This document shows positions 6,085 through 63,980 of a stretch of DNA of 64,000 nucleotides, one piece after another (the first letter of the stretch is position 1; every line of letters starts with the position of its first letter). The notes below the pieces were generated by a model. The model had not been told where the DNA came from. It saw only the letters and a program-made list of their open reading frames with translations, and ran no database searches. Source of the stretch: Cymodocea nodosa (lineage: Eukaryota; Streptophyta; Magnoliopsida; Alismatales; Cymodoceaceae); assembly GCA_036874045.1 (NCBI GenBank), contig CM072339.1, positions 7,571,501 through 7,635,500 on the forward strand, given 5' to 3'. The position numbers and the translations under genes are program-made.

Positions 6085-6809
6085 GAAATAGATATATGTT
6101 AGTAAAAAAAAAAACTTATTTTAAATGCAATCATAGTTCAACCGAAAGAAATTATTGGTTTTATCGAAATATATAAAAAATATATATATATCTTGTTATG
6201 GTCACACCGAAAGGATCCATCGGTTTGACCGAAACATAAAAATATAAAAAAATATATATATTATATTAAGTAAAATGTCGATTTTATCAAAGCATGGTAT
6301 TAGTTCAACTAATAGAAAAAAGAAAAAAAAAATTAATTTTGATTCAATCGAGGAAATATAATAGTTTGACCGAAATTCTAAAATGATGAAAACTTAAGAG
6401 TCGATGAGACCGAAAATTCTTTGGTCTTGACCGAATTAAAAATTATTATTATAATTATTTTTATTAGTTATAACTTTATGAGAGGTCCATTGAGTTATGC
6501 TTAACTCAACGAACTTACTCTATTGAATCTAGGATAAGTTAACGAACTTACTCTATTAAGTTAACTGTAACTCAACGAAGTAATATAGTTAAGTCCATGG
6601 ACTTAGTCTGTGGAGTTAACCGTAACTCTACGGAGAAGTGAGAGAGAAAGTGAGAGTTTGCACAGGAAAATGACCCGATTACCTGCCAAAAACTTAGGGT
6701 TTATTTATACTAAAACTTAGGATTTGGGGGTATTATCCATAGAAATCATTTAGAACTTAGAATAGTAGAGATCAAAACAATTTCGTTCTGTAACGCCACA
6801 AGATACAAG
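6085..6809 (+). other. Post-pol spacer of gypsy copy 2
   Basis: Diverged duplicate of 2683-3427 with the same order: ACCGAAAGGATCC-like runs, a dyad array at about 6478-6625, a TATA-like TATTTATAC at 6702, then an ATG at 6810. No gene inside. Confidence 0.6.
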
Positions 6810-7162
6810 ATGACGCTAGAATTCTGGGAAGTAGTTGACACTACAAGATTTCTCAAGGAGTTAGAGGAATGAAATACACGACAAAGATCAGGAACACGAC
6901 ATAGGAGAAAGAATTAGAAAAGGTAGAATCTGATATTTTCAATTGGAGAAAAGTTTTGGTTGATTTAAATATTAGAATACCTCAAATAGTAGAAACAAGA
7001 ATCAAAGTAGCAACAGAAGTGGCTATAAATAGAGAAAGGAGAATTAGACCAAACAATGAGGTTGCCCTAGAGTTGATCTGGCGCAAGTCATGATTGTGGT
7101 TTGTAAGACATATTGCTAGACACGCTCGGTGGGAAATCAGGGAGCAACATAAGAAAGCAACT
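6810..7162 (+). pseudogene. Post-pol ORF of gypsy element, copy 2 (fragment)
   Basis: Duplicate of the first half of the frame at 3428. It starts MTLEFWEVVDTTRFL and carries different stops from copy 1 (for example TGA in the GGAATGAAAT stretch), so the copies decayed independently. Homology to copy 1 ends at 7162, which cuts the frame. Function unknown, as for copy 1. Confidence 0.5.
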
Positions 7163-7796
7163 GTCTATTGGATTTTGTTAACTTCTGTTTAGTTGTGACA
7201 AGTTAAATCTTAAACTTGCTTATATCAATAATTCCTTTTAGAAGTAAATGAACAACCTTTCACACAAATTATATATTTATTCCAATTTGTATTTTAATTG
7301 CAAGTGTACAATGTATATTATATTTGTGTGCAAGTACAGGTCGATCTCACAAAGAATTGAGTAAGAATTGTGTACTATTTCATTTTTAATAATGAAATTT
7401 ATATGCTCAATAAGTACTCCGTTGAATTATGGCTAACTCAACGGATTAACCTCGTGGAATTGAATTAACTCCACAATGCTATCTTTCTAGTTTAATACTA
7501 CTATTTACAAAGGAATTCGGCCAACCATTGGGCGGTTCCACAGATTGTAAATAACATCAGTTAAGCTCTTTAATGCTAGGTAATATTAGATTTATCATTA
7601 AGAAACACTAACATTCAACTATTTCAAATAGTAACCATTAAAATCTTTAAGTATCTAGAATGAATCAATTTCAGTAAATTGTAAAACTATTTTCTATTTT
7701 CTGAATCAAACAAACATAAAACATTCACAATACTGACAATGATAACATTAATCAAGATAAAATACAACACTTAAATACAAAATGTAAACACAGATA
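7163..7796. other. Unassigned AT-rich flank before the copia block
   Basis: No coding potential seen. It contains TTGCAAGTGTACAATG and TCGATCTCACAAAGAATTG at about 7309-7365. Those resemble, in reverse orientation, the 'tccctgtggattc ... gtacttg' end of Athila/Tat-type LTRs, and a similar pair of strings in the insert at 21739-23260. At 7415-7485 there are dyads of the CGTTGAATTA/TAACTCAACGG type. It may be a piece of a gypsy LTR, but no ends were found. Confidence 0.35.
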
Positions 7797-10831: not shown

Positions 10832-12400
10832 ATGGCTACTGGAAATGGTAATTTTTCTTTATATGAAGGCCAAAATCTTAATCATCCTCCTTTATTAAAG
10901 AGACAAAAATAAACATGTTGATTCATAAGTATGAACTCTTTAGGATGCATGAAGATGAAAATATTTCTGAGATGTTTTCTAGATTTCTTGATATCATAAA
11001 CTCTTTAAAATGTTTAGGAAAGAATTTTGAACAGAAGGATTTGGTGAGGAAAATTCTTAGATCCCTAAGTTCTAAATGGTCTCAGAAAGTAACATCAATT
11101 GAGGAAAAAGTTTTACAAGAAAAAGGCTTTGAAGGTCACTTGGGATGACACGTCTGAAGAGTCTGAATCTGAGGAATCAACATCAAAATTTTCACATTCA
11201 AAAGGAGAACAAAGGTTAGAAGACGTTGCTCATGTGTGCTTCATGGCAGATGAGTCTGAGGTAGTATCTGATCCTGAAAGTCATTCAGATTTCAACTTTG
11301 ATGAATTATTATGTGCTTATCATGCATTATTACAAAAACTTAAAGTATGTAAACTGGAAAATAATAATATTAGAAAATCTTCATCCATTATGGAAGAAGA
11401 AAATTGTTTCTTGTCTACTACTTTAGAAAAGTTTAAATGTGATAATGAAAATCATGCTAGAGATTTGCAAAGATTTAGATTTAATGAATGTATCTTGCAT
11501 GAACAAATACAGAATATAAATGCTAAAAAATTAAAGATAGAATCTGAAAATGAAATGTTGAGAAACAATATAAATGAACTTGAATTAGAGATAGATAAAT
11601 TAAAACTGAGAGAGCAAGATTTAAATTCTACCATTGAGAAATGGAATTTAAGTCAAACTAAGTTAGACAAACTAACTAGTACCTCTACGGTGTCTTATAA
11701 ATTTGGCTTAGGATTTGATTATCCTGAATCTCAAGCCAACAAAGGATTTATTAGTTGCAGTTCAAGTAAATCTAAGACTAAAATTCCTTTTATTATGAAA
11801 CAAGGTAATAAATATGTAGAAGTAGGTACTTCAATGGATGAATCATGCAGTAATAATATATATCAATGTGATTTGTCGAATTGTACTTCTAACATGACTA
11901 TAAATGTTTCTAAAAATCTTGTTTCTTGTTCTGGAAATTCAGTTTCTAATGTTTCTAAAATTTCAGACAATTGTAGTAAACTGAAAATTTAGAAACTTGA
12001 GCATGTAATTCAATACACTGGTATTAGACCATTTACTCATTCTACATGTGATAAAACTAAAAATTCTTGTGCAGAAAAAGATTTTGTATGTACAAAAAAT
12101 GTTAATACAAGTACAAAATCTTGGTACGAACTTACTGAAATATATGAGCATAACCAAAATAAATTAACATCTGATAAAAATCTGTTTGGTCTTGATTATA
12201 CTACATCTGAAAACAAAAAGAATGATTGCAAACGCAATAATGCTATATGTGAGTATGAAGCTAATGATAAATCAATAGTACTTACAACTAATAAGAATAT
12301 AAATGATAATGTTAAACTATTTTTAAACAAAAGGAAGAAAGATGTGTTTAATGAACTTGGTCCTCAACAACATTGGGTACCAAGAAAAAGTTTTTCTTAA
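10832..12400 (+). pseudogene. B1 gag with coiled-coil C-terminus (deleted)
   Basis: Gag would form the particle that packages element RNA. It starts MATGNGNFSLYEGQNLNHPPL, as in B4. An internal deletion then joins CCTCCTTTA to TTAAAGAGAC, removing about 80 codons of the capsid domain. A second deletion after SIEE removes the zinc knuckle. From 11099 a long frame encodes FYKKKALKVTWDD, an acidic stretch, and then a coiled coil (about 11310-11650, Leu/Glu/Lys heptads such as LELEIDKLKLREQDL). A TAG interrupts at 11990-11992. The frame resumes to GPQQHWVPRKSFS and ends at TAA 12398-12400, which is in frame with pol. Confidence 0.82.
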
Positions 12401-12412
12401 TTTGTGTTGCAG
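11261..12412 (+). other. Candidate GT-AG intron between gag and pol (B1)
   Basis: Begins GTAGTATCTG directly after codon GAG and ends TTTGTGTTGCAG directly before GAGGAA, so both sites are phase 0. The length, 1152 bases, is a multiple of three. It holds the coiled-coil gag region and the gag stop TAA (12398-12400). The 3' end is U-rich (TTTTTCTTAATTTGTGTTGCAG) with possible branch-point strings CTCAAC and CTTAAT. The sequence left after removal would read ...MADESE-EEITSKWILDSG, the same fusion seen directly in B4 at 45450/45451. Confidence 0.7.
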
Positions 12413-18477: not shown

Positions 18478-20230
18478 TATTAGGACCCTAGTATTTTGAT
18501 AATGCAAAAACCTATGTGAGGAAACCAAATTGTATTTCATAGATATGTTAGCTTAGCAAAAGATCAGAAAGCAGACGAACAGATGGAGAAAGTTTTAGAA
18601 GATACTGCTATAGAACTACAGGAAAATCGGAGAGTTACAAGTCTAAGTATCCGAAGAGCAAGAGTAAAACAACAGCAAGACTATCGGATAGTTAGAAGGA
18701 TAACTATCCGAATTTTACAAAGCCTTCGGAGAGTTATTATATCAGACAGTTAAGTTGGTTGAATGATTGGAGAGTTATGGAGTTAACTATCCGAAAGAAA
18801 AAGGGAAAATCGGAAAGTTAGAAAGGCTAACTATCTGAAACTTAAGTCATTCAATAAATCACGTGTAGAAATACAGAACGGAAGCTTAAAGGACTTGTCG
18901 GAGAGTTAGATAATTATCCGAGTTTTCTTTTCGGAGAATTAGATAACTATTCAAGTTTTTCGGTAAGTTACATGCATAACTTTCCGAAACTTAAGTCATT
19001 TTATTACGCACGTGCAAAATGAAGAAGTCGGCAGTTGAAAGCTTGAAAGGGAAATCGAAGAGTTAGAAAGAAAACTATCCGGAATTTCAAAAGAGTTTCG
19101 GTGAGTTACAGTTTAACCATCCGAAACTTAAGTCACTGAATTTCCCACGTGCAGAATTCCAGAAAGAAGTGCAAATAAGTTTTCGAAGAGTTAGAAAGAT
19201 AACTATCCGAAATCCTAAAGCGTTTCGGTGAGTTACAAGGATAACCATCCAAAACTTAAGTCAGCCTTTATACACGTGCTGAATTAAAGCAATCGGAAAG
19301 TTAACAGAGACAAACTATCCGACAAGTATATAACTGTTCAGTGAGTTACAGTTATAAGTATCCGATTGGATGACAGCTCACATTTAAATATTCTAGAATC
19401 CTACCTAGCAGTAAAGGTTAAGTGATCTTTCAGTGAGTTACAGATACTCTTCGGAGAGTTGCATAGCTAACTATCCGAAAGGATAGGAAAATCGATGAGA
19501 TATCTTGAAACGATTTTCTGAACAGTAACTTACCGTATTGGGACTTGAATCTAATCAAGTACAGTAGAATACATTCGTTAGAAGAAAATATGATCGTTGT
19601 ACATATCAGGTATATATACAAGATACAAACAACAGATTTAGATAGCTTTTGCTCATATACATACAGAGATACAGTATACATTACAGATCAATTACTGATA
19701 TAGAAGAAAGCTCAAATTCAGTTCAACAAAGAATGGATTGAAAGCTGGATTTACAAGAAGATTCTTAAAGCTCTCCATGTGCTGAAAGTCTAATCCAAGA
19801 AGGATCATTTGGTTCGTGGCTTCAACCTGAAAGCTACATTTTGTTGTTGGTTTGAGTTTCGACCTGAAAACTCGTGAAGTTGGTTTTTTGGAGTTTATAC
19901 CTAAAAACATTTGAGTGTTGGTTTTCTAGAGTTTGTACCTGAAAACTTCTGTGTGGTTGGTTCTTGCTTCGACCTGAAAGCAAGTGTGTAAGTGTTGGTT
20001 GAAACACTTAGTGAAGCCTAAGTGACCCTTGGGGGTGGACTAGCCGAGTTGGTGAACCACCTAAAATTCCCTTGTATTTCTTACTTTTATTTCCGTTGTG
20101 CATGTTATTTTTATCTGATTAGTTCTTGTGCATTCAGATTAATCAAATTAGTTAGTAAAGTTTAAAATAGGCTAAATTACACTCTGTTCACCATTCACCC
20201 CCCCTCTGGTGAAGCCATTCGTTCCTAACA
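18478..20230 (+). repeat. Element A 5' LTR
   Basis: TATTAGGACCC ... TTCCTAACA, 1753 bp. The first dinucleotide is TA here against TG in the 3' LTR. It carries a long dyad array (18626-19490), then a downstream part with three repeats of a TTGGTTTTCTAGAGTTT / CCTGAAAAC type (19840-19990) and a C-rich end (CACCCCCCCTCTGG). A PBS follows two bases later. Confidence 0.92.
18626..19490 (+). repeat. Dyad array with periodic G-boxes in element A LTR
   Basis: About fifteen imperfect inverted repeats of the form TCGGAGAGTTA - short spacer - TAACTATCCGA; examples are CGGAGAGTTAGATAATTATC and CGGTGAGTTACAGTTTAACC. Four of them are followed by ACTTAAGTCA and, 10-14 bases on, CACGTG at 18860, 19009, 19146 and 19273. 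The spacing of 149, 137 and 127 bases gives a higher-order repeat of about 140. The array is repeated in the 3' LTR, with one segment shorter there. Confidence 0.85.
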
Positions 20231-20232
20231 AT

Positions 20233-20244
20233 TGGTATCAGAGC
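20233..20244 (+). other. Primer-binding site of element A
   Basis: TGGTATCAGAGC two bases after the LTR end, complementary to initiator-Met tRNA. It is the same primer as in family B. Confidence 0.93.
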
Positions 20245-20283
20245 AAGGTTGATCTCTTTTTATAGATTTAACCATCTGAGATC

Positions 20284-23200
20284 ATGGCATCTTTTCACAG
20301 AGAAGGTCAGAACATCCATCGTCCTCCTTTGTTTGATGGTATTAATTATAATTACTAGAAAAACAGGATGGAATGTTTCCTCAGAAGCTCAAATGTGAGT
20401 TTATGGAAAATGGTTTTTCTAGGAACACCTATTCCACCTAGTCATGAGGATGACTAGACTGAGGAGGATGAGAGAATCATCCAAATGGATGCTCGAGGGA
20501 TGAATATTATTTACTGTGCCTTATCTACTGAATAATATAATAAAGTTTCAGCTTGTAAATCTGCTCACGAGGCTTGGAACACTCTTCAAATAACCTTTGA
20601 AGGAACTACCAGCCAAGTGAAAGACACTAAAATAAGCATTTTACTCAAAAAGCTTGAATTATTTAAAATGCTTGATGATGAAACTATCACTGATATGTTT
20701 TCAAGATTCACTGAGATTATTAATGGCTTAAGAGGTTTGGGAAAGGAATTTTCTATCCGTGAAGAGGTACAGAAAATCCTCAGAAGCTTAACTGTGGAAT
20801 GGAAGCAAAAGTCCACATCGAAACAAGATTCCAAAGACCTTAACAAATACTCAGTAGAGGATCTAATGGGCAACCTGCTGGCCCATGAAGTTCAAATGAA
20901 AGAATAGAAAGATGAGGAATGTAGTGCTAAAAAGAAAACTGAAACAAAGAAAGAACTAGCCTTTCCATCAACATAGGAACTTCAAAGCTCGGATGATGAT
21001 GAAGTTGTGCTATTGGCTAGAAAGTTTAGAAAATGGATGAAGAAAAAGAACCAAGCTAGCACATCAAAAAGCAATGCACCAATATGCTTTAAATGCAAGA
21101 AGTAGGGACATATACAACCTGATTGTCCATTGCAACAAGAAGAAGAAAAAGAAATGAAGAAGAAGAAAAGGAGCTACAAAAAGAAAATGGCATTGAAGGC
21201 TACTTGGGATGACAGTAGTTCTTCTAGTAGCTCATCCAGTTCAGATGAAGAGGAACTAGTAAACGTATGCTATACAGCACAAGAGGTATGTTCCACTTCA
21301 TCTCAAAGTGATTCTGATGTAGACAATGATAATCTAGATGTAAATATTCTTTTGTCTACTGTTGACAATTTATATGTTAAATGCAAAAAGTATAAAAAGG
21401 AAATTAAGCATTTAACTACATGCTTAGAAGAAGCACATACTGAACTTGAAAATTTGCATGCTGAAGATACAAAATGCAATAATGATAAATTGATAGATGA
21501 AAATGAAAAATTTAAATCTGAAATCACTGATCTAAAAAATACTGTGCATAAATTTACCAATGGATAGAAAGGATTAGATCAGATCATTGGTTCTCAAAGA
21601 TACAGTTCTAATAAACTTGGCCTAGGGTATGCTACTCCATAGGAAATACCCTATTGTGGTAGTGTTATCCGATCTTATAGAGATGGTACAACAGTGTTTG
21701 CCATCAAAAGAAGATTTGGTTCAATGTGGTTGCTATTGAGCTATATTTTTAGCTCAAGCTTTACTGCAAGTGCATAGATCTTTTGGTGTACATGGCAAAT
21801 ATAGGTCATTCTTCCACAAGGATTGTGTTTATGACTTAATCAACTATTACTCAACTTGTTTTTCAAGCTCTTAGGTATACTTCAGTAAATTAATGACATG
21901 TGAATGTAGAATAATCAAAATTAACACAAGCTCACAAATCATGCAGTTTCAAGGCAATGTGTAATGGAAAATGGTGATGTGAATCAATTTCTTTACTTGT
22001 AAATCTATCAACTCATTCAATTATAACATGCACACAAGTTCCACGTGATTTCAGAAGTGATATCAATGCATCAATATTGAGGAAAGAAAAATAAAACAAG
22101 AAGGTTCAATAGACTATACTACTCTATTCTAATTTATACTAAATGCATGCAACTATGCTATTTGCTAATCTAGCTAAACTATACTATACTACTTGCATTA
22201 GAAATTCTTTTTGGAGATTGATTAGGACAAAATGTGATCAATATAAGATATAACAAACTCAATTAACTATTGAAATTAAAATTAACAACTAGATATAAGT
22301 GATAGGTTCTTCATTCAAATGAACATCAACACTTATTTTCTTCTTCTTTCAATTCACACCTTCTTCTCAAATGCGCCAAGCCACCATTGGTGAGTGTCAT
22401 TCACTCGTGTGAAAGCCTCACCAACAGCCCCAACAATACACATGAATAGAGGATGCAAATTAGAAGTTGAAAAGAAGAATTAAACATTCATATACATTCA
22501 TTGAACTCTATCTAGCTAAGAAGACATATAATTGAGATGTTCACCACCATTTCTCATCAATTCTTCCTTCTATACAAGAAAATAATAAACTCTAAGAGTT
22601 GTCACTACCTTAGGAGCTTCTTATCTTCTTCTCTAGAGCTTTGAATTCAATGGAACTTGGCAGCAACTCCACCTCCAAGCTTGGACGTCTTCTCCTTAGC
22701 CCTTGGAATGGTGAATAGCATCAATGGATGGTCTCCTTGCAAGCATAAGCCTCACCTCCAAGCTTTCTTCTCTTCTTTCTTTCTCTCATTGGAAGCACCA
22801 AGGTGGCCTACGAAATTCCTCTCCCCTTGCATTTATGTTAGCATGTGTTCTCTCTCTTTGATGTGGCACCTTGGTTTTATCACCAAGCCAATAGGATGCC
22901 ATAGATCTAGGAGGTCCAATAAGGTGTTGGCATGCCCTCTTCTTTAAAGTTTAGTCCACCAACTTTTGATTCTTTAGATCTTCTTTTGGTCTTTTGCATT
23001 AAGCTCCTTCCATATGTGTGTTACCTACAATTAATGGAAATTGAGCTCCAAGAGATGTTAGCCAACATAGGACATGCAAAATAAATCAATGTGTTCCATG
23101 TAAAATTATATCCAATGGGGGATGCACTTGTTAATTAAATTTCTATATTGCACTATATTTCAAGACTTATATTACCCATAACTAATATCATTTATCCACC

Positions 23201-23358
23201 ATAGATATATAATATCATGCAAAATTACTTATAAAATTCATTAAAAATGGGCAAAATTAAAGCTTGAACAGCTGCCAAAAGGCAATAAACTAAATATTGT
23301 CAGGACTAACACTTATGGACCCGAGAAAGTATGGGTACCAAAATCTATTTCTATTTGA
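20284..23358 (+). pseudogene. Element A gag (broken, with insert)
   Basis: Starts MASFHREGQNIHRPPLFDGINY, as SIRE-type copia Gag proteins do. The capsid-like region has the ITDMFSRFTEIINGLRGLGK and EVQKILRSL motifs (20686-20810). A zinc knuckle follows at about 21081-21125 (CFKCKK, stop in place of one residue, GHIQPDC). Then come KKKMALKATWDD, a Ser-rich run, acidic DNDNLDVN and a short coiled coil (21370-21560). Stops include TAG near 20356 and 20457, TAA near 20533, TAG at 20906, and TAG near 21565. An insert splits it near 21739. The C-terminus resumes QLPKGNKLNIVRTNTYGPEK and VWVPK, and stops at TGA 23356-23358. Confidence 0.85.
21739..23260. mobile_element. Unclassified insert in element A gag (approximate ends)
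   Basis: AT-rich sequence unrelated to copia gag, lying between ...AIKRRFGS and QLPKGNKLN. Near its left end are CTGCAAGTGCATAGATC and CTTCCACAAGGATTGTG, which look like the reverse of the LTR end 'tccctgtggattc ... gtacttg' seen in the solo LTR at 34555-36336. The insert is therefore possibly a minus-strand gypsy LTR fragment. No TSD or clean TG...CA ends could be fixed. The open frame at 22657-22947 has no recognisable features and is not called. Confidence 0.45.
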
Positions 23359-24702
23359 ATTGCAAGATTACATCATTTAGGGGGAGCAGCTAATTTACAG
23401 TGTCAAATTATTCTTTGCAAATCAATGGTATTGCAAGAGGCACCATAAATTGGTAGAAAGTGCTCACTTAGACTAAGTGGAAATCGTGCCTAAAATCTTG
23501 ATGCTCAAGGAGAGCAAAATTTGCAACAGTTAGAAACAAGTGTTGTCAGAAAAAGTAGAATCTCATGAAGAGAAATTTTTAAGAAGCCAAACAATTGGTA
23601 ATCAGAAGGTAATCAGTTAAGAATCAGTTATGATATTCTGAAATTAACAAGTGGTATCAAAAGTAGCATCAATGATTGATTCATGTTTGTTAAACGAAGC
23701 AAGGCCTGTAGTAGCCAGATTACAATCTTCAAATTATTTTCTGCAAATTGAAGAACCTCTTGAAATAAAGCTCCAAGAGAAGATAAACGGATTGGAATCA
23801 GAAGTTAAATGATTGAGAATCATTTATGATGTTTTTGATTAACAATTGATACCTAGTTCAATTGGTATTCTATATGTCATTTTGCAGAACAGGTGCAGCA
23901 ATTTGTCTGCAAGGAAAAGCATATAAGTAGGGGGAGAACCTACTATATGAAGAGAATTCAGAATGTTACTTCAGTACAAAATAAAAGTGTATAAAGAGGG
24001 CATACATATAGGAGGAGAACCTATAGCTTGCTATTATAAATTATAGATAGGGGGAGAGCATGTGGTAGAAATTACAAATATTAACTGCATATTTATAAAT
24101 TGCTACATTAACTATTGGCATTTCACTATTTTCAGTTTCTACAGATGATGCAGTAATTACACGAAAACAAAGGAAGAAATATCACAAATCAGGAGAGTAA
24201 TTACTGACTTCTCAGATGATAGAATGTCAACAACTGGCATCAGACAAGGATTAAGGAAATTAACACTTCAATTGATACTGTGCTCGAATAAGAAAGAAGA
24301 AAAGTAGCACAAATCAAAGGAAAATAGACTGCAATGATGAAAATATCTCAACAATTGAGATCTATACATCAACAGTCTACATTTGATGGAAAATCAAAAA
24401 TTGGTATTTGAAGATATTGATGTATTTGATTCTTTTCACAACTTGATATCTGATGGGATTACAGAGATCAAAAAATTGGTATATCATCAAATACAAATTT
24501 AATGACAAAAAGGGGGAGAAGAATATAGAAAATTACATAGAAGGCAAGGGGAGCATTCCCAGCACACAGACAAGGTGAGAATTTAACTTCATTGTATTCA
24601 TTGTAAATCTTTGCTTTACCTAGTTTCTATGTCATTGAATGTATAACAACAATCTAGGGAGTGAAATACATGTAATTTAATGTAAAGGATTTTGTCATTA
24701 TC
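23359..24702 (+). other. Pol-less 3' region of element A
   Basis: Occupies the place where pol would be, but no DSG, YVDD or RNase H motif exists in any frame I could read. It holds repeated purine tracts: TAGGGGGAGCAG (about 23380), TAGGGGGAGAACC (about 23930), TAGGAGGAGAACC (about 24010), TAGGGGGAGAGC (about 24052) and AAAAAGGGGGAGAAG (24510), before the true PPT. The first tract, two codons past the gag stop, suggests deletion of pol between gag and the 3' non-coding part. Confidence 0.65.
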
Positions 24703-24716
24703 AAAAAGGGGGAGAT
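24703..24716 (+). other. Polypurine tract of element A
   Basis: AAAAAGGGGGAGAT just before TGTTAGGACCC of the 3' LTR. Confidence 0.92.
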
Positions 24717-26435
24717 TGTTAGGACCCTAGTATTTTGATAATGCAAAAACCTATATGAGTAAACCAAATTGTATTTCACAGATATGTTTGCCCAGCAAAA
24801 GATCAGAAAGCAGATGAACAGATTGAGAAAGTTCTAGAAGATACTACTATAGAGCTACAGGAAAATCGAACAGTTGCAAGTCTAAGTATCCGAAGAGCAA
24901 GAGTAAAACAGTAGCAAGACTATCGGACAGTTAGAAGGATAACTATCTGAATTTTACAAAGCCTTCAGAGAGTTATTATATTAGACAGTTAAGTTGGTTG
25001 AATGATCGGAGAGTTATGGAGTTAACTATCCGAAAGAAAAAGGGAAAACCGAAAAGTTAGAAAGGCTAACTATCCAAAACTTAAGTCATTCAATAAATCA
25101 CGTGTAGAAATACAGAACGGAAGCTTAAAGGACTTGTCGGAGAGTTAGATAACTATTCGAGTTTTTCGATAAGTTACAAGCATAACTTTCCAAAACTTAA
25201 GTCATTTTATTACGCACGTGCAAAATGAAGAAGTCGGCAGTTGAAAGCTTAAAAGGGAAATTAGAGAGTTAGAAAGATAACTATCCGAAATTTCAAAAGA
25301 GTTTTGGTGAGTTACAGTTTAACCATCCGAAACTTAAGTCACTGAATTTCCCACGTGCAGAATTCCAGAAAGAAGTGCAAATAAGTTTTCGGAGAGTTAG
25401 AAAGATAACTATCCGAAATCCTAAAGCCTTTCGGTGAGTTACAGGGATAACCATCCAAAACTTAAGTCAGCCTTTATACACATGCTGAATTAAAGCAATC
25501 GGAAGGTTAACAGAGACAAACTATCCGACAAGTATATAACTGTTCGGTGAGTTATAGTTATAAGTATCCGATTTGATAACAGCTCACATTTAAATATTCT
25601 AGAATCCTACCTGGCAGTAAAGGTTAAGTGATCTTTCGATGAGTTACAGATACTCTTTAGAGAGTTGCATAGCTAACTATCCGAAAGGATAGGAAAATCG
25701 GTAAGATATCTTAAAACGATTTTCTGAATGGTACTTATCGTATTGGGACTTGAATCTAATCAAGTACAGTAGAATACATCCGTTAGAAGAAAATATGATC
25801 GTTGTACATATCAAGTATATATACAAGATACAGACAACGGATTTAGATAGCTTTTGCTCATATACATACAGAGATATAGTATACATTGCGGATCAATTAC
25901 TGATATAGAAGAAAGCTCAAATTTAGTTCAACAAAGAATGGATTGAAAGCTAGATTTACAAGAAGATTCTTAAAGCTCTCCATGTGCTGAAAGTCTGATC
26001 CAAGAAGGATCATTTGGTTCGTGGCTTCAACCTGAAAGGTACATTCTATTGTTGGTTTGAGTTTCGACCTGAAAACTCACGAAGTTGGTTTTTTGGAGTT
26101 TATACCTAAAAACTTCTGAGTGTTGGTTTTCTAGAATTTGTACCTGAAAACTTCTGTGTGGTTGGTTCTTGCTTCGACTTGAAAGCAAGTGTGTAAGTGT
26201 TGGTTGAAACACTTAGTGAAGCCCAAGTGACCCTTGGGGGTGGACTAGCCGAATTGGTGAACCACCTAAAATTCCCTTGTGTTTCTTACTTTTATTTCCG
26301 CTGTGCATGTTATTTTTATCTGATTAGTTCTTGTGCATTCAGATTAATCAAATTAGTTAGTAAAGTTTAAAATAGGCTAAATTACACTTTGTTCACCATT
26401 CACCCCCCCTCTAGTGAAGCCATTCGTTCCTAACA
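24717..26435 (+). repeat. Element A 3' LTR
   Basis: TGTTAGGACCC ... CGTTCCTAACA, 1719 bp. It matches the 5' LTR throughout, including the dyad array and CACGTG boxes, but lacks one dyad segment of about 35 bases near 25150. It is followed by the second GACAC. Confidence 0.93.
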
Positions 26436-34376: not shown

Positions 34377-37254
34377 TTATCATGCATTATTACAAAAACA
34401 TAAAGTTTGTAAATTGGAAAATAAAAATATTAGAAACTCTATCCATTTTGGAAGAAGAAAATTGTTTTCTATCTACTACTTTAGAAAAGTTTAAATGTGA
34501 TAATGAAAATCATGCTAGAGATTTGCATAAATTTAGATTTATTGAATGTGTCTTTGTATAGATGATATTTGTGTAGATTTTTATATGATAATTCATGCAT
34601 TCTATGTCTTGAAACTCAAGTTATATGCACTTATACAAGAAAATACATGTTAATCACATTTTTATGACATTGCATGAATATGTGCACAAATGCACCCCTT
34701 TAATGCAATTTTCATGAAATGTACTAGATGTTCATATGTTTGAATGTATGATTTAATAATTCTTAGGCCAAGAAAGAGATTTTAAAGTTCATCAAGGTAT
34801 TGAAATAATTTGATATGGCCACATATATTTTACACATTATGGTTATGAACTTGTGGACATTAAATGCAATAATGTGATATTGGTTATGAATAATTTTAAA
34901 TACATGTTATTAATTGATTCATTCATGGATGAAATTACATTTCACATTTGTAAACATGTTAAAATGAATGTTACATACCTTAGAATAAATATATTTCAAG
35001 TTCATAACTAGAGTTATTTTTGGCATGTATTACTAACATTACATGCATGAGTTAAATGGAATTTGTTATAGGTGAATGTTGGCCCTTGGATCAAGCTTTG
35101 GGATCATCAACTCTTGGATGATCAAAAATATCTATAAATAGGCCTTGTATCCCACAAATTTTCTCCCCTCTCCAACTCCAAAATTCGAAATCCCCCTTGG
35201 TGCTCCAAGCAAGGAGGTGAAGGAGCTCCACTCTTGGTGTTTTCTCTTCCAAACGGTTCTTGGAGGTAGGTCTCTCCCTTTCCTTGTTCTCTCCACTTCC
35301 TCCTTTGGCATTCTTCACCATTAGGGAGGTTGAATTGCTGCTGTAATTACTCCTTGAGGTGTTAAATCCGTGGAGGAGAGGAGCATTGGAGAGACAAGTA
35401 GAGGTGTAGTGAAGTATCTTCAAGAGTGCAGTCTCTTGTTCTACACATTGCTGCATTCCTTTTGGCGTTGGACCTCCAATCCATGGAAGGAACAAGCTGC
35501 ATTGGGCATGGAGAATTGGTGGAGAAGGTAGACATCTTTGGTGGTTGAAGTAAGGAGGTGACGTCCCTTGTGGAAAGACCATTGGAGATGTGGGCTTAAG
35601 GTGAGGAGATGGACTATGAGTTGAGATGGAGTTGTTTGTATTTCCTGTTTTGATGTTGTATGGTTGTTATGTGTTCATTCCATGTTTTCCACATATTTCC
35701 CTTTATTGTAATGTTGAATTCTTGTTGTTATATCAATGTTTTTCAATTCTAAGTTTAGTTTGAGTTTTGTGCCCTTTATGTGTTTGATTTTATGTTTCCT
35801 TGTATGGATTCTTCTCAAATGTTTGATCCTCTAACTCTAACATAGTTTAGACATTTTTTTACTTAACTCTAACCTTCTAATTTACTTTATTTGGATTGTA
35901 TATAGCTTATACTTAGTAGATTAGAGCATACATGGATTTAGATGTATGGTTATAAGTCCATGTATGCTAGTTTTGTAGTAGAATTAGTAGTTTGATGTAG
36001 TGTAATTTTCTTTTCTATTTTTGTAGTGTAATAATTATTGTGTGATGCTTTCTCTTAAGTGATGGATAGAGGGGGACATGAATGAGGTTTCCCATTACTG
36101 ATTCAACTCTATATGAAGTCATTTTTAACATATACATGATTGTTAAGGCAAACATATGATGAGAATGCATTTACACAAGGCATATTTATAAACTCTAGTG
36201 AATTTTATGTTTAATTGCTGGTCCCTGTGGATTCAACCCATTCTTGCATGCTTTCTATAATTGACTTCTTGTACTTGTGGTTATAAATATTAAAACTCGT
36301 TTGTGTGTTAATTTCCTGACATGTAAACCCTGAACAGTCTTGCATGAACAAATACAGAATACAAATGCTGAAAAATTAAAGATAGAATTTGAAAATAAAA
36401 TGTTGAGAAACAACATAAATGATCTTGAGTTAGAGATTGATAGATTAAAACTGAGAGAGCTAGATTTAAATTCTACCATTGAAAAATGGAATTTAAGTCA
36501 AACTAAGTTAGACAAACTAACTAGTACCCCTATAGTGTCATATAAATTTGGCTTAGGATTTGATTATCTTGAATACCCTGAATCTCAAGCCAAGAAAGGA
36601 TTTATTAGTTGCAGCTCAAGTAAATCTAAGACTAAAATTCCTTTTATCATGAAACAAGGTAATAAATATGTAGAAGTAGGTACTTCAAGGGATGAATCAT
36701 ACAGTAATAATATAAATCAATTTGATTTGTCTAAGTGTACTTCTAACATGACTATCAATGTTTCTAAAAATCTTGTTTCTTGTTTTGGCAATTCAATCAC
36801 TAATGTTTCAAAAATGTCAAACAATTGTAGTAAATTGAAAATTCAGAAATCTGAGCATGAAATTAAAAACTCTAGTGTTAGACTAATTACTCATTCTACA
36901 TATTCTTTATTTGAAAATTCTTATGCAGAAAAAGATTTTGTATGTACTTAAAATTCAAACACAAGTACAAAATCTTGGTATGAACTTACTGAAATGTATG
37001 AGCATGATCAAAATAAATTAACATCTGATAAAAATAAGTTTGGTCTTGGTTATACTACATCTGAAAACAAAAAGAATGATTATAAGAGCAATAATGCTAT
37101 AAGTAAGTATGATGCTAATGATAAATCATTAGTACTTACAACTAATAAGAATGTAAATGATAATGTTAAACTATTTTTAAACAAAAAAAAGAAATATGCG
37201 TTTAATAAACTTGGTCCTCAACAACATTGGGTACCAAGGAAAAGTTTTTCTTAA
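34377..37254 (+). pseudogene. B3 gag coiled-coil C-terminus (split by solo LTR)
   Basis: Starts at the equivalent of B1 11312 and runs to 34554 (TLEKFKCDNENHARDLHKF). It is interrupted by the solo LTR and resumes after the second GTCTT at 36342 with LHEQIQNTNAEKLKIEFENK. Coiled-coil heptads continue to about 36500. The Ser/Asn-rich region and HWVPRKSFS follow, with the TAA at 37252-37254. A TAA also interrupts near 36948. The acceptor TTGCAG of the candidate intron ends at 37266; the donor side is absent because the 5' part of gag is missing. Confidence 0.8.
34555..36336. mobile_element. Solo LTR, probably Athila/Tat-type gypsy
   Basis: TG...CA insert of 1782 bp (TGTATAGATGAT ... AACCCTGAACA) flanked by GTCTT at 34550-34554 and 36337-36341. 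TCTATAAATAGG at 35131-35142, followed by a CT-rich stretch, looks like a TATA box and start region for plus-strand transcription. Near the right end, TGGTCCCTGTGGATTCAACC with GTACTTGTGG resembles the 3' part of Athila/Tat LTRs as I remember them. No internal genes, PBS or PPT, so it is probably a solo LTR left by LTR-LTR recombination. The frame on the minus strand at 35091-35582 is not supported as a gene. Confidence 0.7.
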
Positions 37255-37266
37255 TTTGTGTTGCAG

Positions 37267-42428: not shown

Positions 42429-44182
42429 TGTTGAGTATTTTTGTTTTGATAATGTGTGCTGAATGAAAATAATCATATTTGCTCAATTACTATTGCTTGT
42501 GAAAAGAAATTAAAATCATCAATTAATACAGAAAAAGCTTACTGATATAAATACTTGTCTGTATTGGATTTGAAGTTAATAACTAGTCGTTTCGTTGCAT
42601 TAATTTCTCATTTAGCTAAACGTTAAGTTAACGTGTGTTTTTATTGAAAAGCATGATATGTTTTAAAGTTTTATCTTCTGTATCGTGAACAGTGCATGTT
42701 TAGACAACTCGTTAAGCTAGAGTTTTGTTTGTATAGAGGTCACATAGGAACTCGTTAAGTTAGAGGCTTAAAGGTTAAAATAGGTCACATGATAACTCAT
42801 TAAGTTAGTGAGTAAAAGAAGAGATGAACTCGTTAAGTTAGTGTTATACACGTGGTGAAATTATAAGTTATGAATGTTGTATTGTATCACGTGAGGGGCA
42901 CATGTTTAACTCATTAAGTTAACAAAACTAAATGCGTTGAGTTGCTATATTGAACACTAAGGCAACACGTTAGGTTAGCGTTATAAACTTAAGTTGTTAT
43001 TTTTGCACGTGGTAAAATTCTTATTATAAAAACATTTGTTTATTACTGAATCGATGAGTTAAAGTTTTTTTTTCAGAGACTTATAGTCGTAACTATCTGT
43101 AAGGTAACTTAAGTCATGTTTTTAGGTCTTGACACGTGTTTCACTAGTTTTATAATATAAAGAGTTTTTCAGTGACTTACATCTGTAACTATTCGAAACT
43201 TAAACTGTTTTCGGTGAGTTATCGTTTAACCTTCCGAATGAAAGGTTAAGCTGGTTCGTTGAGTTAGCATAACACCACGGACTTAGTTCGTTGAGTTAGC
43301 TACAATACTTGTCACGTGAAATGGCACATGGTGAACTCATTAAGGAGGAAACGTTAAGTTATATATATATACTTGTGTTACTCGTTTAGTTAAAATTAAA
43401 GTAACGACTTCTTATTACACTGATGAAAAATTTTTGGATGAGAAAGTTTATTTTGTAGGAAATTTTTTAGAGATCCAGGACTAATGCTTAAAGAAAATTT
43501 GAAATATAAACGTGGGTTAGAACGTGTGTGTTTCGATGAAGGAAAAAGAAAAGACGTAGAGAAGTGGAAAACTGGTAGTGGTTAAACGTGAAGGATATGC
43601 ATGAAATGAAGATACAGTATAAAAGGCATAGAATTCTCGTTGATCAAACCATCCTTGTACACAAAATGAAAAATCTTTTCAAGGATCAAACCATCCCTAC
43701 ACACCTAAAGAAAAATCTTTTTCGGGGATCAAAAACACCTCTTCGAGAAAAATCTCTCAAGTGGAAGAAGATTCAGTGAAGCATAAAAAGGTAAGATTTT
43801 CGTCACTAAAGATTTGAAGTATCAGAAGAAAGCAAATTCGGTGAAGCATAAAAAGACAAGATATTTGTCATTGAAGAATTGCTGAAGAAGAAATAAGAAG
43901 AAGAAAGATCTCAAATAGGGAGAAATGTTTTAAATTCCGCAAATTAGTTTTCTCTGTTTGTAGTTATGAAATTGTTTAGATGATACATGGTATCGAGTTA
44001 TAATTGCATCTACAATTTCTGAGGAGAATTGAATTGTATATTGTAATTGAAACCTTGAATAAAAATGATTTTATGAAAACAATGTCTCGACTTGTTTTTG
44101 AATTTTAAAGTTTCAATTATATTTCAGAAAATATTAAAAATACACAATTCACCCCCCTCTTGTGTAGCCATATGATCCTACA
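42429..44182 (+). repeat. B4 5' LTR
   Basis: TGTTGAGTATTTTTG ... TATGATCCTACA, 1754 bp, the long version with TCTTGACACGTGTTTC. TATAAAAG at 43618-43625; R-region tandem repeats and the GAA-rich stretch follow; AATAAA at about 44058. Several CACGTG boxes have decayed to CACATG or CACATA compared with B1. Confidence 0.93.
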
Positions 44183-44382: not shown

Positions 44383-45450
44383 ATGGCTACTGGAAATGGT
44401 AATTTTTCTTTATATGAATGCCAGAATCTTAATCATCCTCCTTTATTTGATGGAATACATTTTGAATATTGGAAATATAGGATGACTATTTTTCTTCAAA
44501 GTATAGAACATAAATTGTGGTTCATTATTTCTAAACCATATACTCCGTTAACTACTCCTTGTAATACTTGGACAATTACTGAAAAAGAAAATGAAACTCT
44601 AAATGCTAAGGGCTTAAATATTTTGTGCATTGAGTTATGAACAGTTCAGTAAAGTGTCGGCATATAAATCTGTTTATGAGGTGTGGCATGCATTAGAAGT
44701 TTCACATGAAGGTACTTCTCAAGTTAAAGAGACAAAAATAAACATGTTGATTCATAAGTATGAACTCTTTAAGATGCATGAAGACGAAAATATTTCTGAG
44801 ATGTTTTCCAGATTTCTTGATATCATAAACTCTTTAAAATGTTTAGGAAAGAATTTTGAACAGAAGGATTTGGTGAGGAAAATTCTCAGATCCCTAAGTT
44901 CTAAATGGTCTTAGAAAGTAACATCAATTGAGGAATCACGAGATTTAAATGTTTATACTATAAATGAACTTATAGGAAATTTAACAGTAAATTAAAAATT
45001 AAGAAAGAAATAGCCTTCGAAATTAATTCAGATTCTAATATATCTACTGATTTTGACGAGGATTTGATTTTGCTAACTAGGAAATTCAAGAAAGCAAGGA
45101 AAGCTAGGAAACAGCAAAGGAACAAAAATGATAAACCCTCAACGTCAAAATCACTGAATGACAAGAATTCTTCATCCAAAAAGTATGTATGTTACAACTG
45201 TAATAAACCTGGACATCTTTCTCCCAATTGTCTTTTGAAGAAAAATGAAAAGCAAAGTACGACAAATCAGAAGAAGACGGCTCAGAAAACTCAGAAAAAG
45301 TTTTACAAGAAAAAGGCTTTGAAGGTCACTTGGGATGACACGTCTAAAGAGTCCGAATCTAACGAATCAGCATCAAAATTTTCACATTTAGAAGGAGAAC
45401 AAGAGTTAGAAGATGTTGCTCATGTGTGCTTCATGGCAAATGAGTCTAAG
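44383..45450 (+). pseudogene. B4 gag (capsid and zinc knuckle, no coiled coil)
   Basis: Starts MATGNGNFSLYECQNLNHPP, then FDGIHFEYWKYRM (typical copia gag N-terminus). A frameshift occurs at about 44630, after which SYEQFSKVSAYKSVYEVWHA and EMFSRFLDIINSLKCLGK continue in another frame. A TAG replaces Gln at 44912, and stops follow near 44993 and 45010 with a second shift. From 45064 the frame is open: a Lys/Arg-rich stretch, zinc knuckle CYNCNKPGHLSPNC (CX2CX4HX4C, about 45187-45230), KKKALKVTWDD and an acidic tail ending MANESK. It then joins pol without a stop at 45450/45451. Confidence 0.87.
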
Positions 45451-45460
45451 GAGGAAACAA
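45441..45460 (+). other. Gag-pol junction with candidate intron excised
   Basis: TGAGTCTAAG is followed directly by GAGGAAACAA. In B1 and B5 the corresponding sites are TGAGTCTGAG + GTAGTATCTG (or GTAATATCTG) and TTGTGTTGCAG + GAGGAAA, separated by 1152 and 1161 bases. The joint keeps codon phase 0. A deletion using the 3-base match AGG at both sides would give the same product, so splicing is favoured but not proven. Confidence 0.7.
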
Positions 45461-48400
45461 CATCAAAATGGATATTGGACAGTGGAGCATCAAGTCACAT
45501 GACCGGACAAAAAATTCTATTACAAAATTTTACAAATACCATGAAAGGAAGTGTAACATTTGGAAACAAAAGCAAAGATAAAATCATAGGTATGGGCAAT
45601 GTTCAAATAACTCCTACTTGTGTTATTTTGAATGTACTATATGTAGAAAACCTAGGTTTTAATTTGCTGAGTGTTATAAAACTAACTGAAAATAGATATT
45701 ATGTAGTGTTTGAAGATAATGTATGCAAAATAATTGATAAAAATATAGATGAAATTAAGTTTATTGCTAAAAGAAAAGGTTCTGTATGTATTTTATCTTT
45801 ATCTTCGGGTGCAGTTGATTTAAATTCATGTTTGCTAGTTGAAACTAGTGATGCATATCTATGGCATAGAAGGATTGGGCATATAAATATGAAACTGTTA
45901 CATAAACTATCTAGAAAACATTTAGTGAGAGATTTACCAAAGATTAAATACTCAAAGGACTTTATGTGTAATGCATGTGAGTTAGGTAAACTTCATAAAA
46001 ACTCTTTTAAATCCAAAACTGATATTTCAAGCAAGAGAGTCTTAGAACTTATACATATGGATCTATTTGGACCAACAAGAATCATGAGTCTTAGTGGTAA
46101 ACGGTATGTATTTGTTTTAGTAGATGACTTCTCTAGATACACTTGGGTATATTTTCTAGCATCTAAGGCAGAAGTTTTTGAAAAATTTAAAATGTTTTGC
46201 AATTTTGTTCAAAATGAGTAGAGTGTCTCTATTCAAAAACTTAAGAGTGATCATGGAACTGAATTTGATAATGATCAAATGGATAACTATTGTAATGAGC
46301 ATGGCATTGATCATAGATTTTCTTTTCCAAGAGCATCATGTCAAAATGGTGTTGTTGAGAGAAAGAATAGATCACTTCAAGAAATGGCCAGAACTATGTT
46401 GAATGAACATAAGTTACCTCAAAATCTTTGGGCTGAAGCAGTAAATATAGCTTGTTATGTTATTAATAGAAGTCATTTAAGACCTCATGTTAATAAAACT
46501 CATTTTGAAATTATATTTAATAGGGTTCCAAAAATTTCCTATATGAAACCATTTGGCTGCAAGTATTTTATTCTTAATACTAAGGATAAAAGGGATAAAT
46601 TTCAAGCCAAATCGGATGAAGAAATTTTTGAAGGTTACTCTACTAGAAGTAAAGCCTATAGAGTATATAACAAGACTTCTAGGACTATTGAAGAAACCCT
46701 TCATGTAAGCTTTAATGAAAATTCTTTAAGAGAATCTCAATCTAAAACTGATAATGACGATTTGATCAACCTTCCAAAAGAGTTAGAGATCAATAAAGAG
46801 ATTGATGATTTATCTGAGAAAATAAAAAATATGAACTTAAATGATCAAACTAATGATGAAAGTGATGGACTTTCAGATGTTGATGAGAATATTGAGGAAA
46901 ATCAAAGAAATTAGTGTTAATCTTCATCACATCCCATTACTCAAGTCATTGGTGATATTAATGAGGGAGTTAAAATTAGATCTTCAGTAAATTTAAATAG
47001 TATGTGTATGTTTGTTTCTATGGTGGAACCAAGGAATATACAAGAAGCATTATCTGATGAAAATTGGATAGTGGCAATGCAAGAAGAACTAAACCAATTT
47101 ATCAGAAATGATGTATGGGAATTAGTCTCTCCACTAGAAAATCAGTCCATAATAGGTACAAAGTGGATCTTTAGAAACAAAACTAACGAAACTGGTCAAG
47201 TTATAAGGAATGAAGCTAGATTAGTTGCACAAGGGTATACACAAGAAGAAGGATTAGATTATGATGAAACATTTGCTCCTGTGGCTAGGTTAGAAAGTAT
47301 TAGAATATTATTGGCCTATGCTTGTTATATGGATTTTAAATTATATCAAATGGATGTAAAGAGTGCATTTCTAAATGGTTTAATTAATGAAGAAGTCTAC
47401 GTAAAACAACCACCTAGATTTGAAGATATTAAAAATCCTAACTTTGTGTATAAATTGAAGAAAGCCTTATATGGTTTAAAGCAAGCACCTAGATCATGGT
47501 ATGAAAGATTGTCTACTTTTTTATAGAAAAATGCTATATCATGGGAAAAGTGGATCATACTCTATTTATTAAGAGAGATGGTAAAGATCAGATTGTTGTT
47601 CAAATATACGTGGATGATATAATCTTTGGAGCAACTTATGAAAAGTTGATAGAAATATTCTTTGAAGAGATGACTAATCAGTTTGAAATGAGTATGATAG
47701 GAGAACTTTCATATTTTCTAGGACTTCAAATTAAACAAATGGATAAAGGTATATTTTTAAATCAAGAAAAATATGCAGATGAAATGCTTAAGAAATTTAA
47801 TTTTAATGATACAAGGATTCGAGGAACTCCTATGAGTACTACTTTAAAGTTAGATATTGATGACATAGGAAAATCTATATATCAAAGAAAATACAAAAGT
47901 ACGATTGGTTCTTTACTTTATTTGACTGCTAGTAAACCTGATATTATGTTTGCTGTGTGTGTTTGTGCTAGATTTCAATCTAATCCTAAGGAATCATACT
48001 TAATTGTAGTTAAAAGAATATTTAGATATATACAAGGAACTAAAAATTTTTGACTGTATTATTCTAAGGATAGTTCAATAGATCTTATAGGATATACTGA
48101 TGCTGATTATGCAAGATCTAAATCTGATAGAAAGAGTACTAGTGGCACATGTCAATTATTAGGAAATAATTTGGTGTCATGGTTTAGTAAAAAGCAAAAT
48201 TGTGTAGCACTTTCTACTATAGAAGCTAAATATGTTGCTATTGCACTGTGTTGCACTCAGATTCTATGGATAAGGCAAACTTTAGAAGATTTAGATTATC
48301 TTATGATACAACTGAGATTTATTGTGATAGTAGTTTTGCAATAAATCTTTCCAAAAATCCTGTATTACATAAAAGAGCAAAGCATATAGAGGTTAGACAT

Positions 48401-52905: not shown

Positions 52906-54627
52906 TATTGAGTATTTTTGTTTTGATGATGTGTGCTGAATGAAAATAATCATATTTGCTCAATTACTATTGCTTGTGAAAAGAAATTAAAATCATCAAT
53001 TAATACATAAAAAACTTACTAATATAAATACTTGTCTGTATTGGATCTGAAGTTAATAACTAGTCATTTCATTGCATTAATTTCTCATTTAGCTAAACGT
53101 TAAGTTAACGTGTGTTTTTATTGAAAAGCATGATATGTTTTAATGTTATATCTTCTGTATCATGAACAGTGTACGTTTAGACAACTTGTTAAGTTAGAGT
53201 TTTGTTTGTATAGAGGTCATGTGAGAACTCGTTAAGTTAGAGGCTTAAAGGTTAAAATAAGTCACATGATAACTCGTTAAGTTAGTGAGTAAAAGAAGAG
53301 ACGAACACGTTAAGTTAGTGTTATACACGCGGTGAAATTATACGTTACGAATGTTGTATTGTATCACGTGAGGTGCACATGTTTAACTCATTAAGTTAAT
53401 ATAACTAAACACGTTGAGTTGCTTTATTGAACACTAAGGCAATGCGTTAGGTTAGCATTATAAACTTAAGTTGTTATTTTTGCACGTGGTAAAATTCTTA
53501 TTATAAAAACATTTGTTTATTATTGAATCGGTGAGTTAAAGTTATTTTTTCGGAGACTTACAATTGTAACTATCCGAAAGGTAACTTAAGTCATGTTTTC
53601 AGGTCTTAACATGTGTCTCACTAGTTTTATAATATAAAGAGTTTTTTGGTGACTTACATCTGTAACTATGCGAAACTTAAACTGTTTTCGGTGAGTTATC
53701 GTTTAACCTTCCAAAAGAAAGGTTAAGTTGGTTCGTTGAGTTAGCATAACACCACGGACTTAGTTCGTTGAGCTAGCTACAATACTTGTCACGAGAAATG
53801 GCACATGGTGAACTCATTAAGTTAGAAATGTTAAGTTATATATATATACTTGTGTTACTCGTTTAGTTAACATTAAAGTAATGACTTCTTATTACACTCA
53901 TGAAAAATTTTTGCATGAGAAAGTTTATTTTGCAGGAAATTTTTTAGAGATCCAGGACTAATGATTAAAGAAAATTTGAAATATAAGTGTGGGTTAGAAC
54001 GTGGTGAAGTGGAAAACTAGTAGTGGTTAAACGTGAAGGATATGCATGAAATGAAGATACAGTATAAAAGGCATAGAATTCTCGTTGATCAAACCATCCT
54101 TTTACACAAAATGAAAAATCTTTTCAAGGATCAAACCACCCCTGCACACCTAAAGAAAAATCTTTTTCAGAGATCAAAAACACCTCTTCGAGAAAAATCT
54201 CTCAAGTGGAAGAAGATTCAGTGAAGCATAAAAAGATAAGATTTTTGTCCCTAAAGATTTGATGTATCAGAAGAAAGCAAATTCGGTGAAGCATAAAAGG
54301 ACACGATATTCGTCACTGAAGAATTGCTGAAGAAGAAAGAAGAAGAAGAAAGATCTCAAACAGGGAGAAATGTTTTAAATTCCGCAAATTAGTTTTCTCT
54401 GTTTGTAGTTATGAAATTGTTTAGATGATACATGGTATCGAGTTATAATTGCATCTACAATTTCTGAGGAGAATTGAATTGTATATTGTAATTGAAACCT
54501 TGAATAAAAATGATTTTATGAAAGTAATGTCTCGACTTGTTTTTGAGTTTTAAAGTTTCAATTATATTTCAGAAAATATTAAAAATACACAATTCACCCC
54601 CCTCTTGTGTATCCATATGATCCTACA
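52906..54627 (+). repeat. B4 3' LTR
   Basis: TATTGAGTATTTTTG ... TATGATCCTACA, 1722 bp (first dinucleotide TA instead of TG). Compared with the 5' LTR it has lost about 30 bases near 54000 (GTGTGTTTCGATGAAGGAAA region). TATA box, R repeats and AATAAA are present. Confidence 0.92.
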
Positions 54628-62819: not shown

Positions 62820-63980
62820 CTGCAACACAAATTAAGAAAAACTTTTTCTTGGTACCCAATGTTGTTGAGGACCAAGTTCATTAAACGCATATTTCTTATT
62901 TTTGTTTAAAAATAGTTTAACATTATCATTTATATTCTTATTAGTTGTAAGTACTATTGATTTATCATTAGCTTCATACTCACATATAGCATTATTGCTT
63001 TTGCAATCATTCTTTTTTTTTTCAGATGTAGTATAATCAAGACCAAACATATTTTTATCAGATGTTAATTTATTTTGGTCATGCTTATACATTTCTGTAA
63101 GTTCATACCAAGATTTTGTACTTGTATTAACACTTTTTGTACATACAAAATCTTTTTCTGCACAAGAATTTTTTGTTTTATCACATGCAGAATGAGTAAT
63201 TGGTCTAACACCAATGTATTGAATTACATGCTCAGGTTTCTGAATTTTCAGTTTACTACAATTGTCTGAAATTTTAGAAACATTAGAAACTGAATTTCTA
63301 GAACAAGAAACAAGATTTTTAGAAACATTTATAGTCATGTTAGAAGTACAATTTGACAAATCACATTGATTTATATTATTACTGCATGATTCATCCCTTG
63401 AAGTACCTACTTCTACATATTTATTACCTTGTTTCATAATAAAAGGAATTTTAGTCTTAGATTCACTTGAACTGCAACTAATAAATCCTTTATTGGCTTG
63501 AGATTCAGGATATTCAGGATAATCAAATCCTAAGCCAAATTTATAAGACACCGTAGGGGTACTAGTTAGTTTGTCTAACTTAGTTTGACTTAAATTCCAT
63601 TTCTCAAAGGTAGAATTTAAATCTTGCTCTCTCAGTTTTAATTTATCTATCTCTAATTCAAGTTCATTTATATTGTTTCTCAACATTTCATTTTCATATT
63701 CTATCTTTAATTTTTCAGCATTTATATTCTGTATTTGTTCATGCAAGATACATTCATTAAATCTAAATTTTTGCAAATCTCTAGCATGATTTTCATTATC
63801 ACATTTAAACTTTTCTAAAGTAGTAGACAGGAAACAATTTTCTTCTTCCATAATGGATAAAGATTTTCTAATATTCTTATTTTCCAGTTTACATACTTTA
63901 AGTTTTTGTAATAATGCATGATTAGCACATAATAATTCATCAAAGTTGAAATTTGAATGACTTTCAAGATCAGATATTAC
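62820..63980 (-). other. Candidate GT-AG intron between gag and pol (B5)
   Basis: On the minus strand GAG is followed by GTAATATCTG at 63980, and the segment ends TTTGTGTTGCAG at 62820 before GAGGAA. Its length of 1161 bases is a multiple of three, phase 0, and it contains the gag TAA (62832-62834). The donor GTAATA is close to the plant consensus. It is the counterpart of 11261-12412. Confidence 0.7.

Follow-up and report, generated by a model that had tools for sequence, protein, structure and literature searches.

We describe a large Ty1/copia family in Cymodocea nodosa that exists in two forms, differing by a single 1.15-kb piece whose bounds are exact and whose ends look like splice sites. 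The explanation that we favour, at a probability of roughly two in three, is that this segment is a facultative intron within a sirevirus-type element, that its spliced RNA has been copied back into DNA in more than one lineage, and that some of the resulting gapped copies were amplified afterwards. In the unspliced RNA, the segment would encode the C-terminal portion of Gag, and gag would end at a TAA. Splicing from GAG|GTAATA to TTTGTGTTGCAG|GAG would take out this C-terminal part together with the hairpin at the end of gag and the stop, and since all of these would be removed in phase 0, Gag would be read through its zinc knuckle into protease. The predicted junction of the spliced RNA is GAG|GAGGAAAC, with TCT[G/A]AG as its left side; such RNA would sometimes be packaged and reverse transcribed, giving rise to gapped copies such as the one named B4 below. 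Judged from the genomic DNA, splicing has very likely occurred at least once, and reverse transcription of spliced genomic RNA, probably on more than one occasion, gives the best fit.

Sequence comparison within the window (the whole 64-kb stretch of DNA analysed) showed that copy B4 equals copies B1 and B5 minus exactly 1152 or 1161 nt, respectively. In the two intact copies, the segment follows the zinc-knuckle part of gag and precedes the protease, at 11261..12412 on the forward strand in B1 (1152 nt, GTAGTA...TTTGTGTTGCAG) and at 62820..63980 on the reverse strand in B5 (1161 nt, GTAATA...TTTGTGTTGCAG). The B4 junction, TCTAAG|GAGGAA at 45445..45456 (+), has five equivalent placements when computed against B1, and one of them, between 45450 and 45451, yields GT-AG ends and keeps phase 0; B5 was compared with the B4 junction by eye, with 20 nt left of its donor inside the window. 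In B1 and B5, gag and pol share one frame with a single TAA between them, and this stop (12398..12400, + in B1; 62832..62834, - in B5) is part of the segment, whose end follows 12 bases later. In B4, an open frame at 45064..46221 (+) runs from the zinc knuckle of gag across the junction into protease/integrase, with Pfam matches to zf-CCHC, Pol_BBD and gag_pre-integrs and a partial match to rve. The first-pass annotation had described the loss of exactly this GT-AG segment in phase 0, the gag stop within it and the fusion of gag to protease in one frame, and our analysis agrees on each of these points, but the left side of the B4 junction, given there as TCTGAG, reads TCTAAG. It had also credited B4 with LTRs and a TSD. 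Both LTRs are present and 93% identical to each other, the 5' LTR (TG...CA) at 42429..44182 (+), followed by the PBS TGGTATCAGAGC, and the 3' LTR, which starts with TA and ends with CA, at about 52906..54627 (+). The TSD is plausible, the flanks ATGTC before 42429 and ATGCC after 54627 matching at four of five positions.

Breaks of the frame in B4 gag look, by eye, like decay. In B3, a diverged copy, the 3' part of the segment is found at 36338..37266 (+) with the stop and the acceptor kept, the donor side having been lost by another deletion; the gag segment of B3 is broken by about 1.8 kb of other sequence at 34555-36337. For the gag segment, Pfam gave no match with E<=0.01. Base 45448, three bases to the left of the junction, varies between G and A (7/28 in gapped loci, 7/26 in the donors of segment-bearing loci). 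We considered this base as a lineage marker and rejected it, because both letters occur in both forms; it is likely a site of methylation decay.

The ends of the segment are GT-AG with good consensus, as in a spliceosomal intron. We scored the stretches of B5 (8588 nt) and B1 (7140 nt) that lie in the window, using an approximate plant splice matrix. On this matrix the acceptor ranked first of 581 AG dinucleotides in B5 and first of 456 in B1, and the donor ranked eighth of 432 and eighteenth of 341. Distinct deletions of 100-4000 nt have some GT-AG placement in only 0.51% (B5) and 0.46% (B1) of cases, and those that score as well as the observed one on this approximate matrix number 3 of 17964634 in B5 (1.7e-7) and 6 of 13973295 in B1 (4.3e-7). 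These figures bear on the possibility of an ordinary AGG microhomology deletion, arising during reverse transcription or in the genome, that has GT-AG ends by chance and was amplified later. A 3-bp microhomology is present and deletions of this kind are common in the family, but among sampled deletions with at least 3 bp of microhomology, a GT-AG placement occurred in only 240/31449 (B5) and 285/31702 (B1), and an equal score in one (B5) and none (B1). Moreover, AGG at both ends is the normal product of AG|GT...AG|G splice sites and so does not favour a microhomology deletion, and the loss is in phase and takes exactly the end of gag and its stop. We thus regard such a deletion as very improbable.

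The other large family-B deletions in the window, of 278, 361 and 2060 nt in B1 and 3489 nt in B2, have no GT-AG placement, and inspection by eye of the large deletion in B3, placed less precisely than to the single base, gave no clean GT-AG. Base composition does not follow the rule, as stated in the excerpted text of PMC3735527, that plant introns are U-richer than the exons around them: U content is 32-33% in the segment and 32-34% in pol, so that the segment equals pol, and 25.5% in the 200 nt to the left of the segment in B1.

We searched the window's whole genome (374.6 Mb, 28 contigs). Of 3807 candidates for a 301-nt query spanning the junction, 40 places were scored, 39 matching over the full length and one over 2-301, at 94-100% identity. 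With at most one mismatch, a 23-nt junction pattern was found at 172 places, compared with 1491 for a 23-nt pattern of the intact acceptor side, and reversed control patterns gave 0 matches; counted by these 23-nt patterns, gapped copies make up about a tenth of the total. We read 48 gapped loci, of which L001 (B4) to L028 were picked by query and L059-L078 sampled by pattern, and 49 segment-bearing loci, comprising L029 (B1) to L058 picked by query and 19 of 20 sampled by pattern (L096 gave no match). The segment-bearing loci were sorted by the acceptor motif within two edits. The junction TCT[A/G]AG|GAGGAA was found within one substitution in 48/48 gapped loci, a uniformity that comes partly from selection, since gapped loci were found by junction-spanning queries and intact ones by acceptor queries. 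Among the segment-bearing loci, the donor GT is kept in 41 of the 42 with a donor region and the acceptor AG in 47/49, while the in-frame gag TAA and an inverted repeat at the end of gag are present in 49/49. In 21/48 gapped loci, an open frame extends over 100 codons or more to the left of the junction, and in 10/48 it also covers 150 codons to the right. Comparison of breakpoints at L047, L057, L088 and L094 revealed other deletions touching the segment, with breakpoints that differ among the four.

The earlier suggestion that B4 stems from a spliced, reverse-transcribed RNA is therefore well supported by splice-site quality and by the census, in which B4 is one of 172 places by pattern and its junction is common, within one substitution, to the gapped copies read; recombination is a possible alternative. 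The simplest reading is that of repeated losses at one boundary. Its main rival posits a founding loss that happened once, either by way of one spliced RNA or as one deletion, after which the gapped lineage was amplified beside the intact one and co-packaging and template switching near the junction reshuffled the flanks.

In the first sets, flank distances were equal within and between forms. For these 28 gapped and 27 to 32 intact loci, median distances among gapped, among intact and between the two were.0457,.0477 and.0461 on the left and.0362,.0371 and.0361 on the right; no site in these flanks is fixed between the forms, and the largest frequency difference,.56, falls on a site where the letter of the B1 query is rare among gapped copies. 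For the pattern-sampled loci, the corresponding left-flank distances were.0742,.0629 and.0689, and the right-flank distances were.0593,.2531 and.2510, the latter distorted by deletions in pol. When haplotypes were counted at positions -81/+60/+70/+165, with the 20 extra gapped and 19 extra intact loci picked by pattern included, most occurred in both forms: GATT in 25 gapped and 22 intact loci, AATT in 6 and 9, GGTT in 4 and 4, TGCA in 2 and 2, GGCT in 2 and 1, and AGTT in 1 and 2. TGCG was confined to gapped loci (3) and TATT to intact ones (2). To put the gap on TGCA, a single founding loss needs exchanges on both sides of the junction within about -81 to +70.

In trees, the two forms were not resolved as separate groups. 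A first tree of 32 rows was star-like, with its three intact rows scattered. On 1250 nt of pol, with 60 of 80 rows (after removal of 10 named rows for divergence and of 10 more for a pol deletion), a single gapped clade was rejected at p-AU 0.0094, and the same tree gave 16 label changes against 19.1 in shuffled labels, 41/500 shuffles being as low, which amounts to slight clustering. In contrast, on the shorter alignment of 93 rows and 666 columns a single gapped clade was not rejected (p-AU 0.078), as one founding loss would have it, although the label changes, 32 against 31.3 when shuffled, speak against such a clade there as well. The derivation of all gapped copies from one deletion, which the first-pass annotation had named as a finding that would refute its proposal, is thus rejected by the 60-row tree and sits poorly with several haplotypes that carry both forms, but is compatible with the 93-row one. 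The nearest relative was of the same form in.60-.61 of cases compared with.53 under permutation (p.13-.19), with 55 of 64 rows kept and nine dropped for divergence.

Some gapped copies do group together. L001, L007, L013 and L019 (+357 G) form one gapped-only group, and L070, L073, L075 and L076 (+165 G, +240 G) another. Such groups are what a single founding loss would produce, and they indicate that gapped copies have in part been amplified themselves. A looser, older gapped group consists of L059, L061, L066, L068, L070, L073 and L075, with 21 sites at which at least 4/7 members differ from the rest. The segment-bearing B3 has 13 of those 21 letters, eight being found in at most 1/24 intact and at most 1/29 other gapped rows, and in the 60-row pol tree it pairs with the gapped L073 (96). 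Its distance to the older gapped group is.062-.083 compared with.075 to the rest, hardly nearer.

Deletions in pol add a further distinction between the forms. They are recurrent, mostly about 2 kb long, with several junctions close together (about +230 to +2290, downstream of the acceptor) and breakpoints that differ among copies; examples are B1 at 12643 and L006, L008, L021, L025, L029, L031, L032, L034, L040 and L047, among others. Among pattern-sampled loci, a pol deletion within the first 500 nt was found in 10/19 intact but only 1/20 gapped copies (Fisher p 0.0012); in the query-picked sets, the pol match broke off in 8/30 intact and 4/28 gapped loci (p 0.34), and one per set never rejoined. 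Two of the junctions are not splice-like and occur with and without the segment: junction a in the intact L029 (B1) and L032 and the gapped L008, and junction b in the intact L031, L034 and L047 and the gapped L006. By breakpoint coordinates, junction b recurs in 6/19 pattern-sampled intact loci, so that a deletion not made by splicing is able to spread in this family; this, like the scarcity of pol deletions among pattern-sampled gapped loci, lends weight to a single founding loss. The difference between 10/19 and 1/20 means that gapped copies do not sample all transcripts at random. Taken with the gapped-only groups, the few pol deletions imply that gapped copies also amplify and that their source is mainly copies with a complete pol. 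On balance we consider a single founding loss possible but rather unlikely beside repeated reverse transcription of spliced RNA. The complement of segment-bearing copies that have lost pol and gapped copies in which pol is retained would fit a division of labour; history alone may also account for it.

The element belongs to Ty1/copia (Pseudoviridae), its pol running from protease through integrase to reverse transcriptase with RVT_2; in B5 the Pfam order is Pol_BBD, gag_pre-integrs, rve, SH3 and RVT_2. By the features tested, it fits the sirevirus type. Excerpts of PMC2829016 and PMC5009743 describe sireviruses as having a large gag with a CCHC motif and a coiled coil, an inverted repeat at the end of gag, and gag and pol that are not one open frame. 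Here, the CCHC knuckle was detected by Pfam in B4, a long C-terminal part of gag is seen, and 3' ORFs are present, the two scanned giving no Pfam match. An env-like 3' ORF and repeated PPTs are further marks of the lineage. An inverted repeat of 11 bp with one mismatch and a 5-nt loop lies inside the segment at the end of gag, at 62848..62876 (-) in B5 and 12356..12384 (+) in B1, and is found within two substitutions at 49/49 loci. Only 2/200 shuffles of these 29 nt were as stable, compared with 13/200 for the B3 stretch, which was cut one base off register; the 200 nt around the stop folded no more stably than shuffles (z -0.04). The gag/pol-boundary repeat of sireviruses, as given in an excerpt of PMC5009743, has 27 nt with an 11-bp stem and a 4-nt loop, and the repeat described here resembles it in size and stem length.

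Residues 75-200 of the B4 fused frame gave 58 candidates in a protein database, none at E<=0.001, and among viral contigs 17 stretches matched a pattern, none related to the junction peptide. Between B5 and B3, pN/pS of the gag segment was 0.55, compatible with coding constraint; the value of 1.23 between B1 and B5 is uninformative because these copies are recent.

These observations lead us to a more tentative proposal, which we put at somewhat less than even odds, that splicing acts as a switch, as the first-pass annotation had inferred. Unspliced RNA would supply complete Gag and spliced RNA would supply Gag-Pol without the Gag C-terminus; the spliced RNA would have been re-copied repeatedly, leaving about one in ten copies as a prespliced Gag-Pol form beside intact copies and pol-deleted, Gag-only ones. 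No second splice product was seen. If true, the switch would reverse the plant pattern of BARE1 and EVD, where splicing makes Gag. It would also provide a plant counterpart to MLV, in which spliced RNA is reverse transcribed and whose canonical acceptor is that of env, and a concrete route for Pol expression in sireviruses lacking a single gag-pol frame, with a genomic record in many copies. We did not find a coding-intron switch between Gag and Gag-Pol in the open-licence literature, which misses most subscription papers.

The known systems compare as follows, as far as the excerpted text of each source describes them. In the barley Ty1/copia element BARE1, splicing of a 104-nt facultative intron leads to a frameshift and to Gag only, and genomic DNA yielded no smaller product of spliced size (PMC3735527). 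BARE1 resembles our case, as we interpret it, in having a GT-AG segment near the gag/protease border that is spliced from part of the transcripts, but here the segment is 1.15 kb long, lies inside gag, and by its loss removes the stop and would yield Gag-Pol. In EVD/ATCOPIA93, splicing linked with early termination cuts out the protease region to form shGAG, giving Gag only, whereas unspliced RNA gives Gag-Pol (PMC8892269, PMC12786077). In both, putatively so in ours, a facultative intron in the RNA of a Ty1/copia element governs the ratio of Gag to Pol; the assignment of spliced and unspliced products is the reverse of that proposed here. Translation of the whole polyprotein of Ogre, a Ty3/gypsy element, needs partial splicing (PMC6317226), but its intron lies between gag-protease and RT-RH-INT and the element belongs to another superfamily. 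The SD' RNA (SDARE) of MLV undergoes splicing, is packaged and reverse transcribed, and integrates in prespliced form, giving an element that is transcribed in its turn (PMC2925334); this is a retrovirus, with a donor in gag, the canonical acceptor and no joining of gag to pol. As for sireviruses without a single gag-pol frame, Pol expression is described as unresolved, and bypass or internal entry has been proposed where pol is in +1 or apart (PMC2829016, PMC5009743). Here, in contrast, pol lies in frame behind one TAA, and splicing is a possible route.

The window itself is a nest of one Ty1/copia family plus other repeats. B1 to B4 stand in tandem at 7792-54628, with LTRs seemingly held in common, and B4, flanked by a near-perfect 5-bp TSD, seems to have inserted into B3. 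The 3' LTR of B1 contains a nested LTR-like element at 18480-26435, with repeats at 18480-20230 and 24719-26435 that are 93% alike. A 3-kb direct repeat with 88% identity occupies 748-3782 and 4138-7163, and adjoining it is a Ty3/gypsy-like pol (RVT_1, RNase H) at 245-1489.
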